Part shown: in pieces, positions 8,828 to 14,588 of the stretch
Numbering within the stretch: the stretch's first letter is position 1
Layout: each line of letters begins with the position of its first letter
Origin: Hyphococcus sp.
Lineage (GTDB): Bacteria; Pseudomonadota; Alphaproteobacteria; Caulobacterales; Parvularculaceae
Length of the DNA stretch: 64,000 bases
Direction: 5' to 3'
NCBI GenBank assembly: GCA_021776245.1
Contig: JAJFGF010000046.1
Location: 1 to 64,000 of the forward strand
Made by a program: the position numbers and the translations under genes
Notes under the pieces: model-generated
Seen by the model: only the letters and a program-made list of their open reading frames with translations
Databases searched by the model: none
Told to the model about the DNA's origin: nothing

Positions 8828-10648
8828 TTAAAACCTCGCCTTGACGCCGCCAAAGGCGGACGCCGGCGCTGTACCGTAGCCGAAATTGTCTTGATAGTCC
8901 GCATCCGTTGCGTTCTCCACGCGGGCAAACAGCTCAATCCCGTCGGTCAGGGCGTAAGCCGCGCGAACATTCACGAGAACAAAGCTGTCGAGTGTTTGTG
9001 CGCCGTCAGCCTCTTCTCCATTATACGAAGCGCCCAATGACAGCGTCAGACGATCAGCCGGCCGTAGGGCCAGTTCGAAATTAATCCGGTCATCGGGTTG
9101 GTTGCCCGCGGCAGTTCGCGTGGAGAGATTGATAGCATCAGTAAATGTATAGCTGGCGGAAACGGTCAGCCAGTCTGTCATCGCCGCATCAAGCGCAATC
9201 TCGACGCCTCTGGTCGAAAATTCCTGAATGTTTACGAAAGTGAACGCGGCCAGATCAAAGGCGATCAAATCGTCAATTCGGTGATCGAAATAGGTTGCGC
9301 TCAGCCGCGCCCGTCCGTCCAACAATGACTGTTCGATTCCAATGTCCCAGCCATCGCTGAATTCAGCGAACAAATTTCGGTTAAAACCAAGCTCGCCGGC
9401 TGTCGGCGCCCTGAACCCTTCGGCAAAGCTGCCGCGCAGGATTGCATCCGTGATTGGAATATCAACAGCGGCTGAAACGCTGAACGTCGTTTCATTGCTG
9501 AAATCGGAGCTGGCGTCATGGCGTATGCCGGCGTTAACGGTGGCGAACGAGACCGGTCGAAATTGTATGAGGCCAAAGCCGCTGACGGTTTCAATTTCCT
9601 GATTGCCGCCGAACCCGACTGTCACCGTTGATTCTTGTTTGTCATATTCAGCGCCGGCGATCACGGATATCCATTCGGCGGGTTTGAGCGTGCTTTGATA
9701 TTCATAAGAGATACGCGTGCCCAGGGCGTCAAATGACGCCGCGCCATTCGATAGATTCAGGCGGTCATTTCGCAGATAAGTGATTGAAAGCCGGTTCTCC
9801 AAGGCGCCGCCGAAAGCTTTGTGTGTGGCGAAAGCCGCCACCGAAAATTCGTTCGTCTCGCCGATCTCGTCGCCATCAACCGGGACGCCGGCAAAACCGT
9901 CGAATTCGTTTTTGCTGTCCTGGTAGCGAACAACTGCATCAAAAACGAGATTTTCCATTGGCTCGAAACGGGCTTTTGTGGAAATCGAAAAATTGTCGGA
10001 ACCGTCATCCTCTGAATTGCCGTTCGCCTCGTCTGCGGCAGAAAACCCGCGCGTCGTAATCCCGCTCAGTGTCAACCGGCCTGAGGCGCGATCATTACCG
10101 CCATAGAGGCTCGCAGCGCCGCGGAAAGCTGCAAATGATCCGCCTTCGGCAAACACATCGCCGCCAAATCCGTCGCGTCCGTCTTTTGTGACGATATTAA
10201 TCACGCCGCCGATGGCGTCAGATCCGTAAAGCGTCGACTGCGCGCCGCGTAAGACTTCGATTCGCTCGATACCGGCGGTATCAAGATCGGCAAAATTGAA
10301 ACTATTAGCAAAGGAGGACGGGTTGTTAAGGACGACGCCGTCCTGCACGACTAAAGTTTGGCCGCTTGGCAATCCGCGCAGGGAGACAGTTGCAAGCGCG
10401 CCTGCTCCTCCGGAACGGATGATTTGGACGCCAGGAACGGTGCTTAGCGCGTCGAACACGGTGCGGTGTTGGCGCAGCTCGATCTCTTCAGCCGTCAGGA
10501 CGGTGATCGATCGACCGGCTTGATCGAGCGGCGTCTGGAAGCGCGTTCCCGTGACAATAATCTGGTGCGGGGTTTCCGGGTCCTGCGCCGCGGCAGGACG
10601 TACGACAATCGCTGCGGCAGCGCAGATAAATACTGGTAGATAGTCCAT
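8828..10648 (-). CDS. btuB: TonB-dependent vitamin B12 receptor (BtuB-like)
   Basis: Outer-membrane receptor of 606 residues. A cleavable signal peptide ends at PAAAQ (about residue 22). A TonB box follows (HQIIVTGTRF), then the plug domain (ITVLTAEEIELRQHRTVFDA, SLRGLPSGQTLVVQDGV, IERIEVLRGAQSTLYGSDAI) and a 22-strand beta-barrel ending in Phe (GGVKARF), as outer-membrane porins do. The length matches BtuB. It is the first gene behind the cobalamin riboswitch. AAGGAAAG precedes the ATG and sits next to a hairpin (6-bp arms CGCCGC/GCGGCG) that could mask the ribosome site. Confidence 0.93.
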   Translation of the reverse strand: MDYLPVFICAAAAIVVRPAAAQDPETPHQIIVTGTRFQTPLDQAGRSITVLTAEEIELRQHRTVFDALSTVPGVQIIRSGGAGALATVSLRGLPSGQTLVVQDGVVLNNPSSFANSFNFADLDTAGIERIEVLRGAQSTLYGSDAIGGVINIVTKDGRDGFGGDVFAEGGSFAAFRGAASLYGGNDRASGRLTLSGITTRGFSAADEANGNSEDDGSDNFSISTKARFEPMENLVFDAVVRYQDSKNEFDGFAGVPVDGDEIGETNEFSVAAFATHKAFGGALENRLSITYLRNDRLNLSNGAASFDALGTRISYEYQSTLKPAEWISVIAGAEYDKQESTVTVGFGGNQEIETVSGFGLIQFRPVSFATVNAGIRHDASSDFSNETTFSVSAAVDIPITDAILRGSFAEGFRAPTAGELGFNRNLFAEFSDGWDIGIEQSLLDGRARLSATYFDHRIDDLIAFDLAAFTFVNIQEFSTRGVEIALDAAMTDWLTVSASYTFTDAINLSTRTAAGNQPDDRINFELALRPADRLTLSLGASYNGEEADGAQTLDSFVLVNVRAAYALTDGIELFARVENATDADYQDNFGYGTAPASAFGGVKARF

Positions 10649-10824
10649 AAAATACTTTCCTTACCGCGCAAGCCCGCCGCTATGGCGGCGCCCGCGTGAA
10701 ACGACATCATGACCTGACCAAAAAAACGGCGTGGGCGGCCAGACCTTTTTCATTTGTCGTTACAAAGGAAAGTCATCGGCTTTCCCGCCCGCAGAGAACT
10801 TTTCCCGGCCTCCGGACGAACGAC
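10649..10824 (-). promoter_or_regulatory. expression-platform region between the cobalamin aptamer and btuB
   Basis: This stretch holds no gene. On the minus strand it shows a small hairpin GGAAAG/CTTTCC near 10768-10786, a run of seven T (10721-10727) after a weak GC-rich segment that could act as a terminator, and a hairpin with arms CGCCGC/GCGGCG about 20-35 bases before the btuB ATG. I cannot tell from the sequence alone whether control is by termination or by masking of the ribosome site. Confidence 0.45.
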
Positions 10825-10962
10825 GCGATGGCAGGTCTCCTGGCTCGCCGATCAGCGCTTGCGGCCGCCTTCCCGGGAATAAATCCCAGTGGCATAGTTG
10901 GCCGTTAGCTCCCGGCTAACAGTTGCGGGTACAGCCACGGATTTTCACCGTGTTCCCATCGC
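10825..10962 (-). promoter_or_regulatory. cobalamin (B12) riboswitch aptamer
   Basis: The minus strand has the hallmarks of the AdoCbl aptamer. These are a closing helix of seven pairs (10956-10962 with 10825-10831), the 5' core GAAAATCCGTGGC and GTACCCGCAACTG, the B12 box GCCACTGGG (10885-10893) and the 3' core AGCCAGGAGACCTGC (10831-10845). Corrinoid binding normally represses the downstream genes, here btuB-btuF-btuC-btuD-cobQ. Confidence 0.95.
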
Positions 10963-10991
10963 CGTCATATCGACGGCGCCATCTGCGTTTG

Positions 10992-11020
10992 CATATCAAG
11001 CAGCGACTGGAGTTTGTCAA
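10992..11020 (-). promoter_or_regulatory. candidate promoter of the riboswitch/btu operon
   Basis: On the minus strand a perfect -35 TTGACA (11015-11020) is followed by a 17-bp spacer and -10 GATATG (10992-10997). Transcription would start about 20 bases before the aptamer. Confidence 0.55.
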
Positions 11021-11055
11021 TCAAAAGCCGGACCGCTGGCGCGCAGCATACAGGG

Positions 11056-11161
11056 CTAGAGCATTTCCGAGCGAAGTGGGAACCGGTTCGCGTGAAGGAA
11101 ATGCGACCAAACAATAACTTAGAGCCGGTCCGCGATTCAGTTAAGATCGGAACGGCTCTAG
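11056..11161. repeat. 106-bp palindromic intergenic element
   Basis: The element is bounded by CTAGAGC (11056-11062) and its inverse GCTCTAG (11155-11161). Inside are two hairpins. One has GCATTTCC/GGAAATGC arms around a nested GAACCGGTTC palindrome; the other has AGAGCCG/CGGCTCT arms. The architecture resembles dispersed intergenic palindromic repeats found in many Alphaproteobacteria. It overlaps the last three bases of cobO and could serve as its transcript end. No second copy is in this window. Confidence 0.6.
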
Positions 11162-11760
11162 AAGTCGATGCCGCGCTGCGCCTTGATGCCTGATTTAAAT
11201 GGATGTTTTACCTCGCGCATCTCGCTGACCAGATCGCTGTAATCGCAAATTTCTTTTTTTGCGTCGCGTCCCGTCAGGATGACGCTGGTGCGGTCGGAGC
11301 GGGATTTGAGCCCCTCCAGAACCGTTGCAACTGAGAGGTAATCAAAATGCAGTGCGATATTGATTTCATCAAGGACGATCAAATCGTAATCGCCGCTTTC
11401 CATCATCGTGCGTGCGCGAGCAAATGCCGCCTCCGCGGCGGCAATGTCGCGTTCGCGATCCTGCGTGTTCCAGGTAAAACCTTCTCCCATCGTGTGCCAA
11501 TCGAGTTGGTCCGGGAATTTCGCAAAGAACTGGCGTTCCCCGGTTACCCAATTGCCTTTGATAAACTGGACAACGCCAATTTTTTGGCCCCAGCCAAGCG
11601 CACGGGCAATGACGCCGAATGCCGAGCTTGATTTGCCTTTCCCGTCGCCGGTATGGACTAATATCAGACCGCGGCCCGGGTCTTTCGCTTCCGCTGTTTT
11701 CTTTTGCTGTTCCGCTTTCAGCGCCTTCATTCTAGCCTTATGCTGATTATTCTCGCTCAT
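11158..11760 (-). CDS. cobO: cob(I)yrinic acid a,c-diamide adenosyltransferase (CobO/BtuR type)
   Basis: CobO transfers the 5'-deoxyadenosyl group of ATP to reduced cobalt in corrinoids. The 200-residue protein has a Lys/Gln-rich N-terminal extension (about residues 1-28) that covers the active site in the family. The P-loop HTGDGKGKSSSAFG follows, then IGVVQFIKGNWVTGER and YDLIVLDEINIAL. The ATG at 11760 is preferred over an upstream TTG because GGAACGAG precedes it. The stop codon lies inside the edge of a 106-bp palindromic repeat. It is transcribed in the same direction as the btu operon but separated from it by the repeat, a promoter and the riboswitch. Confidence 0.93.
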   Translation of the reverse strand: MSENNQHKARMKALKAEQQKKTAEAKDPGRGLILVHTGDGKGKSSSAFGVIARALGWGQKIGVVQFIKGNWVTGERQFFAKFPDQLDWHTMGEGFTWNTQDRERDIAAAEAAFARARTMMESGDYDLIVLDEINIALHFDYLSVATVLEGLKSRSDRTSVILTGRDAKKEICDYSDLVSEMREVKHPFKSGIKAQRGIDF

Positions 11761-12073
11761 CACTCGTTCCAAACTCTTTTTTCTACGCGCTTGGCGCAGC
11801 AGCTATCCCTGGCGGCAGGCATATCTAAGTGATATAATTTTTTGCGGCGATCAGCAAAAGAAAACGCCGCCGGGTTCTGTTTCAATCCGAACGCGAACAG
11901 CTGCGCGCATCGGACCGGCGAAAGGAATGCAATGAGCGGCCCTGATATTGACACAAATGAGAAAAACGCCATCGGCGGCATCGACCGGTTCGTTCTAAAT
12001 ATCGCACTCACCGCACTTAGTGTGTTTCCAACGCTCTACTCGCTGGTCGTGACGCCATGGCGGCTGGCGCCTC

Positions 12074-12104
12074 TTTTATTAGGGAATTATATAGTTCACT
12101 CCCT
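12074..12104 (+). repeat. left end of the element: target duplication plus inverted repeat
   Basis: The target copy TTTTATTA (12074-12081) is followed by the left terminal inverted repeat (12082-12104), which starts GGGAATTATATAG and ends CACTCCCT. It matches the right end over 23 bp without mismatch. Eight-base duplications are characteristic of the IS1595 family. Confidence 0.95.
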
Positions 12105-12108
12105 CGCC

Positions 12109-12243
12109 TCATTTCTTCACCGCCGCTTTCGTCTTTTTCGCTTTCCGCTTCCGCTTTTTCGCCGCCTCAGATTTCGGCTTGGGCCGGTAGGCCAGCACCA
12201 AATCCGCAATCGCGTCGAGCGCTTTCATAACCGCTTTCGTCAT
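12109..12243 (-). CDS. 44-residue Lys/Arg-rich protein coupled to the transposase
   Basis: A short frame that starts with ATGA overlapping the transposase stop and ends five bases inside the left inverted repeat. The N-terminal half is a possible amphipathic helix (AVMKALDAIADLVLAYRP). The C-terminal half is strongly basic (AAKKRKRKAKKTKAAVKK), like a histone-H1 or AlgP tail. No domain is recognisable. The coupling to the transposase and the position at the very end of the element suggest that it is translated and may bind DNA near the left end. This is inference from composition and context. An alternative is a non-functional remnant of a longer C-terminal domain. Confidence 0.55.
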   Translation of the reverse strand: MTKAVMKALDAIADLVLAYRPKPKSEAAKKRKRKAKKTKAAVKK

Positions 12244-13157
12244 CGGATCAGCCCCTCATAGGTTAGCCGCTTACCCTTCGCGCCTTGGATGACGCTGTCG
12301 AGGCGCTGCATCGTGTGGCGCTTGACGTTGCCGTCATTGAGGCGAAACGCGAACTCATCGACATAGCGGCCTAAATGCTTCTTGCTCGCGTGATGATAGA
12401 CGCCGTGAAGGCCGCGCTTCATCACCGCAAAAACGCTCTCAACGCCGTTCGTCGTTACGCCATCGCGGGAATATTCGCCCGCGCTGTGATTGATGGTCTC
12501 GTGGCGGAAAAACAGGCCGTCCATATCGGAATAGCAGCCCGCTTCATCGGTGTGCAGGGTTGACCCGATCTCAACACTCTGGACGATGATGTCCTGCACG
12601 GTCTGCGCGTCGGCGCTGTCAATCGTCATCGCCTTCATGCGCCCGCCGCGCTCGCGCAGCGCCAGCACGGGCTTTTTGCCGACCGCTCCGCGACCGGCTT
12701 TCAGCTTTTTTGACTCGTGCTTGTTGGCCTCCCGCCCGCCGATATAGGTCTCGTCGATCTCGACGATGCCTTGCAGTTTTTCGAGTTCACCGCCGCAGGC
12801 CTCCCGCAGCCGGTGAAGGATGAACCAAGCTGTCTTTTGCGTGACGCCGATCTGCTTGGAAAGCTGAAGCGAGGATATGCCCTTCCGGCTCGTGACGAGG
12901 AGATACATTGCGTAAATCCACTTGTGCAGCGGGACATGGCTGCGCTCAAAAATCGTGCCCGTCCGGATTGTAAAATCTTCCTTGCACTGGTTGCAGCGAT
13001 AGTAGCCGTTTTTCCGGGTCGTGATGCGCTCGCCGAGACCGCAGACCGGACAGCGGGGGCCGTCCGGCCAAAGGCGCGCCTCAAGGTAGAGGCGCGCGCT
13101 TTCTTGGTCGGGGAAGCGCTCGAAAAGCTCGAAGGTCGAGATTGTGGATTTTGACAT
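12240..13157 (-). CDS. IS1595-family transposase (ISXO2-like)
   Basis: Protein of 305 residues. A zinc-ribbon of the IS1595 type at about residues 30-65 (CPVCGLGERI and YRCNQCKEDF) is followed by a helix-turn-helix (SSLQLSKQIGVTQKTAWFIL). The ISXO2-like catalytic domain has Asp in VEIDETYIGG, a second Asp in LHTDEAGCYSD and the NGVESVFAVMKRGL segment supplying the third acidic/Asn residue. It is complete and without frameshift, so the element may still be active. The ATG overlaps the passenger stop by one base (TAATG), and the stop overlaps the next small gene. Confidence 0.95.
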   Translation of the reverse strand: MSKSTISTFELFERFPDQESARLYLEARLWPDGPRCPVCGLGERITTRKNGYYRCNQCKEDFTIRTGTIFERSHVPLHKWIYAMYLLVTSRKGISSLQLSKQIGVTQKTAWFILHRLREACGGELEKLQGIVEIDETYIGGREANKHESKKLKAGRGAVGKKPVLALRERGGRMKAMTIDSADAQTVQDIIVQSVEIGSTLHTDEAGCYSDMDGLFFRHETINHSAGEYSRDGVTTNGVESVFAVMKRGLHGVYHHASKKHLGRYVDEFAFRLNDGNVKRHTMQRLDSVIQGAKGKRLTYEGLIR

Positions 13158-13918
13158 TATGCAACCCTCCGCTCAACACGATCGCGCAACGATTGGCCGT
13201 TAAACATAGTCCAGCCCGTCTCGCATTCCAGCGCCAAATATTGCTGGTAAAGCACTGGACGGTGGCGCGCGCCGTTCTGCAAGTCATTATCGCATCCCAT
13301 TATGCAAAAGACGCAGGACAGCCGCTTATTTCCAGCCGCGTACGCCCAAAACGGTTTCTGACCGGCGGCGGCTATGGTGGCGAAAACTTCGGCGTCGCTG
13401 TAATGGTGAATAGGCAGATATTCGTGAACTGTGCGGCCAGCCTTGCTCAGTGTGGCGTTGATCTTGAATGTGCCTTTCTTCGCGCGCGCGGCGCTCTCAG
13501 AGGCGCGCAGGCCCATGCAATTGACGGCCAACAGCGCGCCGCGCTGCTTCATGTCATTGCGGATGAACTTGTAAATCGGATTGCGCTTCAAATCGCTGGT
13601 GCACTGGCGCTGGGCCGATGACGGGAAGGACGGAACATCGGGGCGCGTATTTGCACGGTGGCGCACCATTTCAAACAGCGTTTTCGGCGCACGCACCACG
13701 TTCAGCGGATGACGGATATTGGCGATGATGTGATCCTGTACATCCTCCCATTCGACTTCACCGAGGTCGGCATGGACAACTATTAATTGATCTCGCGGAA
13801 CGATGGAGAAAAGCTCGGCGTACATCGCCTGACTGTCTTTCCCGCCAGAATGAGAGACATAAAATGTCGCGCCTTTGCCTATTAACTCTTTGATTTCATT
13901 TAAGTGCGATATGGTCAT
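13157..13918 (-). CDS. PP-loop ATPase, PAPS-reductase/DndC-like passenger protein
   Basis: Protein of 253 residues. The PP-loop SGGKDS lies at residues 24-29, followed by VVHADLGEVEWEDV and GLRASES (136-142), the arrangement seen in PAPS-reductase-like enzymes including the DNA-phosphorothioation protein DndC. Four cysteines (Cys106 and C-x2-C-x3-C at 202, 205 and 209) could hold an iron-sulfur cluster. The protein would activate a substrate by adenylation, possibly for sulfur transfer; the substrate is unknown. It is the first gene of the element, with AGGAGA before its ATG. It is not an assimilatory CysH, because no cys genes are near and the C-terminus differs. Confidence 0.8.
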   Translation of the reverse strand: MTISHLNEIKELIGKGATFYVSHSGGKDSQAMYAELFSIVPRDQLIVVHADLGEVEWEDVQDHIIANIRHPLNVVRAPKTLFEMVRHRANTRPDVPSFPSSAQRQCTSDLKRNPIYKFIRNDMKQRGALLAVNCMGLRASESAARAKKGTFKINATLSKAGRTVHEYLPIHHYSDAEVFATIAAAGQKPFWAYAAGNKRLSCVFCIMGCDNDLQNGARHRPVLYQQYLALECETGWTMFNGQSLRDRVERRVA

Positions 13919-13941
13919 ATCCGTCTCCTGTTTACACAGGT

Positions 13942-13970
13942 AATGTAGATAACTCCCCGGCGATTGTCAA
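13942..13970 (-). promoter_or_regulatory. promoter of the transposon operon
   Basis: A perfect -35 TTGACA (13965-13970) begins at the innermost base of the right inverted repeat. A 17-bp spacer and -10 TACATT (13942-13947) follow. Transcription would begin about 20 bases before the passenger ATG. The overlap with the inverted repeat would let bound transposase affect expression. Confidence 0.7.
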
Positions 13971-14000
13971 GGGAGTGAACTATATAATTCCCTTTTATTA
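13970..14000 (-). repeat. right end of the element: inverted repeat plus target duplication
   Basis: The right terminal inverted repeat (13970-13992) is the exact inverse of the left one over 23 bp. It is followed by the second target copy TTTTATTA (13993-14000), after which the interrupted gene continues in frame. Confidence 0.95.
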
Positions 14001-14588
14001 ACCCAAGAGCCGGACGGGCGGCGCGGCATGTTGCTCGGCCCTGGCGTATTCTTTGTCGCCTCTATTACGGTGATTATGCTGGCGGCCGGGTTATTTGCGA
14101 CGCCTGAGACAATAGCAAACAATGTTGGCCTGGTTGGTCCAGCCTATTCGAAAAGCGTCAGCACAGCCGTTGCGCAGGGCGATGCTTGGCGTGTCGCCTC
14201 CCTGATCGGTCCGATTTATGTCCTCGCTATTGTTTTGGGGGCGATTGCCAGCGCACTTGGCCGGTTCGTAGGGCCAGCATGGACGCTTCAAGCTGGCCTG
14301 CGCGCCAGCTTGTATCAAATGGCGGCTTCAATCTGCTGGATAATTGCTTCAAGCACGATCATTGACGCAATCGGGTTGGCGGGAGGGCGGCAATTATCAC
14401 AACAGCTTTACATTGTGAACGCAGCGCCAATTCTGGTTTTGCCGGTTTGGCAATATTTCTGGTTCTTTCGACGAACAGGCGACCTATCCAGGATGCGCGC
14501 AACGGGTCTTGCTGTATTAATGCTATTCATGATTGCCGGCGTAATTTTTGTAATTGGTCAGCTCAGATCGGCATTGTCAGCGTAAACT

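Follow-up and report, generated by a model that had tools for sequence, protein, structure and literature searches.

The IS1595 family of insertion sequences (ISs) reportedly goes back to Siguier, Gagnevin and Chandler (2009). As currently described, it comprises the groups ISPna2, ISH4, IS1016, IS1595, ISSod11, ISNwi and ISNha5 (PMC8101967). IS derivatives carrying passenger genes are termed transporter ISs (tIS) (PMC9330008), and phages are considered to contain few insertion sequences (PMC8136500).

The DNA analyzed here (referred to as the window) is a stretch of 64,000 nucleotides from Hyphococcus sp. (contig JAJFGF010000046.1). It contains an intact IS1595-family element of 1,911 bp (positions 12082-13992), present in one copy in the genome, with three overlapping genes on the minus strand (Table 1). 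The original prediction of a recent IS1595-like element with perfect 23-bp repeats, 8-bp duplications and an intact transposase was borne out by the coordinates and by the IS1595 domains of the transposase. The terminal inverted repeats are 100% complementary over 23 nt (24 nt if one base of the target site duplication, TSD, is included), and the element is bounded by two copies of the 8-bp TSD TTTTATTA. The predicted gene order was likewise found, with a TAATG overlap between the PP-loop and transposase genes and an ATGA overlap between the transposase and micro-protein (MP) genes, as was the promoter placed next to the right repeat: a promoter-like TTGACA-17-TACATT sequence, whose first base is the last base of that repeat.

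Table 1. Features of the IS1595-family element and its insertion site (window coordinates).
Feature	Position	Strand	Remarks
Interrupted membrane-protein gene, 5' part (50 codons)	11932..12081	+	
TSD copy 1, TTTTATTA	12074..12081	.	one copy missing where the empty site aligns without a gap
Terminal inverted repeat, micro-protein end, GGGAATTATATAGTTCACTCCCT	12082..12104	+	clade consensus GGGAATTATATACTTGACTCCC
Micro-protein (MP), 44 aa	12109..12243	-	conservation, coding selection, two predicted helices; no family
IS1595-family transposase, 305 aa	12240..13157	-	zinc ribbon and DDE domain
Cargo: PP-loop (PAPS-reductase-fold) enzyme, 253 aa	13157..13918	-	slot between end and transposase, set by comparison with L285
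Promoter-like sequence: TTGACA 13970-13965, 17-nt spacer, TACATT 13947-13942	13942..13970	-	
Terminal inverted repeat, promoter end	13970..13992	-	
TSD copy 2, TTTTATTA	13993..14000	.	
Interrupted membrane-protein gene, 3' part	13993..14585	+	

Insertion of the element has split a membrane-protein gene. The empty site that was to be sought in relatives is present in a congeneric genome (G021), which holds an uninterrupted gene of 244 aa (71% identical); when the flanks from the window were joined, minus one TSD copy, the alignment with G021 showed no gap across the junction. Beside the insertion, at window positions 8828-11772, lies a TonB-receptor-like gene, with a gene for a corrinoid adenosyltransferase (CobO-type) close by.

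The transposase matches the Pfam models DDE_Tnp_IS1595 (E 3.8e-46) and Zn_ribbon_IS1595 (an N-terminal zinc ribbon; E 1.7e-10), and scores 212.6 bits (E 5.7e-63) against the NCBIfam model transpos_IS1595, for which the cut-off is 75. Residues D135, D204 and E240 are proposed to form the catalytic triad. The element, which shares with the family as described (PMC8101967) these two domains, the 8-bp duplications and the short inverted repeats, is an IS1595-family member. It is also a transporter-type IS: a passenger gene, encoding the PP-loop enzyme and missing from the closest element (L285, on a viral contig), lies within the repeats of a single IS. What sets its clade apart within IS1595 is (i) the micro-protein, (ii) slot-wise exchange of cargo and (iii) the cargo theme. 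Compared with the family as described there, the clade adds a dedicated, conserved micro-protein, cargo slots, a skew towards DNA-modification cargo and viral enrichment. With respect to tIS it differs in that its cargo is swapped repeatedly, while the ends, the transposase and a second, near-constant gene form a fixed framework. Literature on IS1595 elements with methyltransferase passengers was searched and yielded nothing specific.

A scan of 84,980 genomes identified 19 close relatives of the transposase (54-79% identical). Nearly all complete relatives from genomes are flanked by ends of the consensus GGGAATTATATACTTGACTCCC and by 8-bp duplications. Matching end pairs are lacking in two bacterial relatives, G286 and G396. 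IMG/VR contains the exact 22-bp end in 92 stretches, and transposase scans of this collection produced 89 distinct complete elements, 71 of them with duplications at ≤1 mismatch. Dozens of other elements are bounded by these ends and by exact 8-bp duplications, which makes the arrangement in the window more than a chance pattern. Clustering of all collected elements at 90% left 136 non-redundant ones. Elements of the clade insert at AT-rich sites with an 8-bp duplication: the exact TSDs (n = 105) are 83% AT, compared with 42% in the flanks, and positions 2 and 7 are almost always A or T. The -35 box of an inward-facing promoter-like sequence lies within or directly next to the ends (the layout seen in the window recurs in L285 and L013), and the genes form a compact array, overlapping as a rule. 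It is likely that these elements form one clade, marked by the ends GGGAATTATATA(C/G)TT(G/C)ACTCCC, by a transposase of 305 aa and by a micro-protein of its own.

As judged from one pattern-based scan of each collection, this clade is enriched in viral contigs. With one and the same query, the best 80 viral transposase hits comprised 71 close and 9 distant relatives, compared with 19 and 61, respectively, for the best 80 hits in genomes (Fisher p 2e-17, an optimistic value because IMG/VR is redundant and may include non-viral contigs). Terminase, head, tail and replication (primase/helicase) genes were found on seven of the ten element-bearing viral contigs tested. Clade ends at ≤1 mismatch were absent from all 398 proteobacterial genomes searched for them, an amount of DNA too small to prove depletion by itself. 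One contig of a Myxococcales metagenome-assembled genome (MAG) (L011; 50,118 bp) has the same size as the IMG/VR viral contig L218 and carries an identical element; it is probably a phage contig binned into the MAG. Some of the "genome" hits, such as L011, are probably phage contigs within MAGs, which favours the link with phages.

The closest element, L285, has a transposase 95% identical to that of the window, the same variant ends, the same promoter layout and an MP, and different tiny ORFs in the slot of the PP-loop gene. Homology between the two covers element positions 1-52 and 834-1911, with 96% identity at the left end and 88% nucleotide identity from the transposase gene to the right end. 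The ends, transposase and MP thus share a single history with L285, which ruled out a chimera of unrelated pieces. A fixed three-gene unit including this PP-loop gene was ruled out by L285 and by the PP-loop relatives lacking ends: none of the relatives at 72 loci has clade ends, and those on plasmids, in phages and in a same-genus genome are accompanied by neither a transposase nor matching ends.

Other pairs of elements likewise differ in cargo. L227 and L228 have in common the ends and transposase (85% nucleotide identity) and the MP with the adjoining end (93%), and carry an N4/N6 and a C5 methyltransferase, respectively; L011/L012 and L207/L255 are further examples. In all three pairs homology breaks at or near gene boundaries. 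Three cargo slots were distinguished: (i) before the transposase gene, (ii) between the transposase and MP genes and (iii) after the MP gene. These alignments indicate that the cargo is replaced at gene boundaries while the ends, transposase and MP stay. On the transposase tree, methyltransferase cargo changed at least four times. On the question whether all three genes recur together, the MP and transposase do so; the PP-loop gene is exchanged, and at the class level other PP-loop genes recur.

PP-loop enzymes, distant relatives only of that in the window, are the cargo of at least eight other elements (L014, L385, L311, L324, L325, L326, L386 and L291), seven of which contain the MP. A Pfam PAPS_reduct match was obtained for L014, L385, L324, L311, L325 and, weakly, L386; the proteins of L326 and L291 gave none. 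All six proteins scanned with PADLOC (those of L326, L291, L385, L386, L324 and L325) match SspD. Other recognizable cargo comprises N4/N6 and C5 methyltransferases, SfiI-type and Eco29kI-type restriction enzymes, Mom, a DruA-like protein and a NADAR protein; recognizable cargo is mostly DNA-modifying. In most elements the cargo consists of small ORFs without known function, and the DNA-modification theme covers part of the clade. Mini-elements of about 0.6-1.2 kb, devoid of a transposase gene, with matching ends and mostly with exact duplications, contain a single methyltransferase or Mom gene. Two different mini-elements with clade ends and duplications (positions 1658-2462 and 11961-12588), both lacking a transposase gene, were observed on a single phage contig, L210; one contains a methyltransferase gene and the other a Mom gene. 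The DruA-like protein (Druantia defence) is the cargo at L335:4490-5368.

The PP-loop protein of the window matches Pfam PAPS_reduct (E 4.5e-7), and its best PADLOC matches are BrxP (8e-17), DndC (3e-9) and SspD (6e-8), proteins of phosphorothioation and BREX with which it shares PP-loop ATP-pyrophosphatase motifs. It differs from them in standing alone, in being shorter than the DndC and BrxP models and in belonging to a genome in which searches for dndB and dndD gave no match; the full Dnd phosphorothioation system is absent from this genome. Direct homologs are found among the PAPS-reductase-like proteins of phages (PHROG 424, classed with the auxiliary metabolic genes), up to the 70% identity of a Labrenzia phage gene, from which the protein of the window differs by its location inside a transposon. 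The best fold matches of its structural model (pLDDT 95) are APS/PAPS reductases (Z ~15; for 7lhr_B, Z 15.4 and rmsd 3.5 over 186 residues), which assigns it to the PAPS/APS reductase fold, and the next best are tRNA thiolases and lysidine and GMP synthetases. The fold matches listed included no DndC or SspD structure, which does not count against kinship. A PDB search with the single sequence gave no match, and a profile search gave weak matches to PAPS reductases only.

Three motifs are invariant in 50 sequences (the protein of the window and 49 viral relatives): an SGGKDS-type loop (S-G-K-D-S), C106-T-x-x-L-K and C202-x-F-C205. C106, C202 and C205 are set like the three cysteines used by [4Fe-4S] PP-loop sulphur transferases (PMC9283937), and by this analogy the enzyme may bind a [4Fe-4S] cluster. 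As cargo, it probably serves DNA modification of the sulphur type or anti-restriction; chemistry directed at DNA is suggested by the genes occupying the same position in other elements and by the nearest defence families, while phage neighbourhoods add no support. Phage PP-loop relatives are not enriched near methyltransferases (6/61 vs 19/80), which ruled out guilt by association with phage methyltransferases for this gene.

A serious alternative, although not a probable one, is that the PP-loop gene is a phage-derived metabolic or tRNA-thiolation gene (CysH- or TtuA-like) serving sulphur metabolism or RNA modification. The order of the fold matches, the auxiliary metabolic assignment of PHROG 424 with its close Labrenzia phage homolog, and the lack of adjoining methyltransferases in phages are all in its favour, and the fold would also suit tRNA thiolation, queuosine chemistry or sulphate reduction. 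It has to be set against the nearest PADLOC families and the DNA methyltransferases and Mom occupying the same cargo position. Furthermore, the host genome already contains two other, stronger PAPS-family genes; together with the lack of dndB and dndD, this makes it unlikely that the enzyme is required for assimilation or works in a classical Dnd system. PAPS/APS reductase (CysH) has a C-terminal catalytic cysteine in an ECGLH motif. Judged from the alignment of the protein of the window with its 49 viral relatives, a reductase-type catalytic cysteine may not be conserved here: the position of C232 is K in 22 and R in 14 of these 50 sequences and rarely Cys.

It is unlikely that the element is an ordinary IS1595 transposon with neutral passengers trapped between its ends, the PP-loop gene being unrelated to its success. 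The great diversity of the cargo, often tiny ORFs, and the occurrence of PP-loop relatives elsewhere without the element would fit such an origin. However, the recognizable cargo shows a strong skew: among 53 proteins selected by length alone, Pfam matched four PP-loop proteins, six methyltransferases and one Mom, compared with about five proteins of other kinds. Moreover, the mini-elements hold one intact methyltransferase or Mom gene, and unrelated methyltransferases were gained more than once.

The MP has the core LDxIxDxVLxYRPKxK, with a proline invariant in 46 sequences, followed by a basic tail. A profile built from 17 copies matched in 45 of the 47 elements whose transposase is nearly complete, including 29 of the 31 IMG/VR elements left out of the profile, and in 85 of the 89 distinct elements of the transposase-retrieved viral set, which partly overlaps the former. 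No MP was found in some 60 IS1595 loci that lie outside this clade. In 28/45 elements only a few nucleotides separate the start of the MP gene from the stop codon of the transposase gene, or the two overlap, mostly by 4 nt; in the other 17/45 the MP gene comes after further genes. Differences per codon position (0.38/0.32/0.63) are about twice as frequent at the third as at the first and second positions, which points to coding selection. The predicted structure consists of two helices (pLDDT 91, pTM 0.40, i.e. good local and low global confidence). At L023:3909-5526 the MP is fused to an N4/N6 DNA methyltransferase as its N-terminus, and an SfiI-type restriction enzyme follows within the same element; at L229:1554-2851 an element contains the MP and a small HTH-like ORF, without a transposase.

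Sequence comparison thus indicates that the MP is a core, near-constant component of the clade. The view that both the passenger and the small protein are integral to the element therefore holds for the MP, which belongs to the element's own biology, and is not supported in this form for the PP-loop gene, missing from L285. It is unlikely that the MP, rather than being a transposition factor, helps to maintain the element as a toxin, an antitoxin or a peptide directed against defence: its small size, basic character, usual overlap with the transposase gene and retention in the transposase-less L229 would suit such a role, but it is bound to a single transposase/end clade, is fused to a methyltransferase in L023, and is missing from methyltransferase-only mini-elements which have nevertheless moved.

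Taken together, the element of the window probably represents an IS1595 clade that is associated with phages, is modular, carries cargo and has a micro-protein of its own. In the proposed mechanism, the transposase would cut and join the element ends, the MP, a predicted two-helix basic peptide, would serve as an accessory DNA-binding factor in transposition or its control, and transposase-less elements would be moved in trans. With less certainty, the cargo may be kept since altered DNA would help its carriers, mainly phages, to escape restriction. By analogy with its cargo-mates and with SspD, DndC and BrxP, the PP-loop enzyme of the window would use ATP to activate a substrate and transfer sulphur, or would otherwise modify DNA or nucleotides. 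The copy in the window would then be such an element that landed in a bacterial chromosome, breaking a membrane-protein gene.

A broader version is put forward only tentatively: a phage-riding clade with interchangeable anti-restriction cassettes in fixed slots, where whole genes for methyltransferases, Mom or PP-loop enzymes and complete restriction systems come and go, which requires the MP for transposition, whose mini-elements shuttle single DNA-modification genes among phages, and whose PP-loop protein is a compact, stand-alone enzyme of sulphur-based DNA modification or anti-restriction. If this is true, the clade would give phages one way of acquiring and trading orphan methyltransferases, Mom and restriction systems, and looking between its ends would offer a ready screen for unknown counter-defence genes. 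The MP would then stand for a new class of small proteins associated with transposition.
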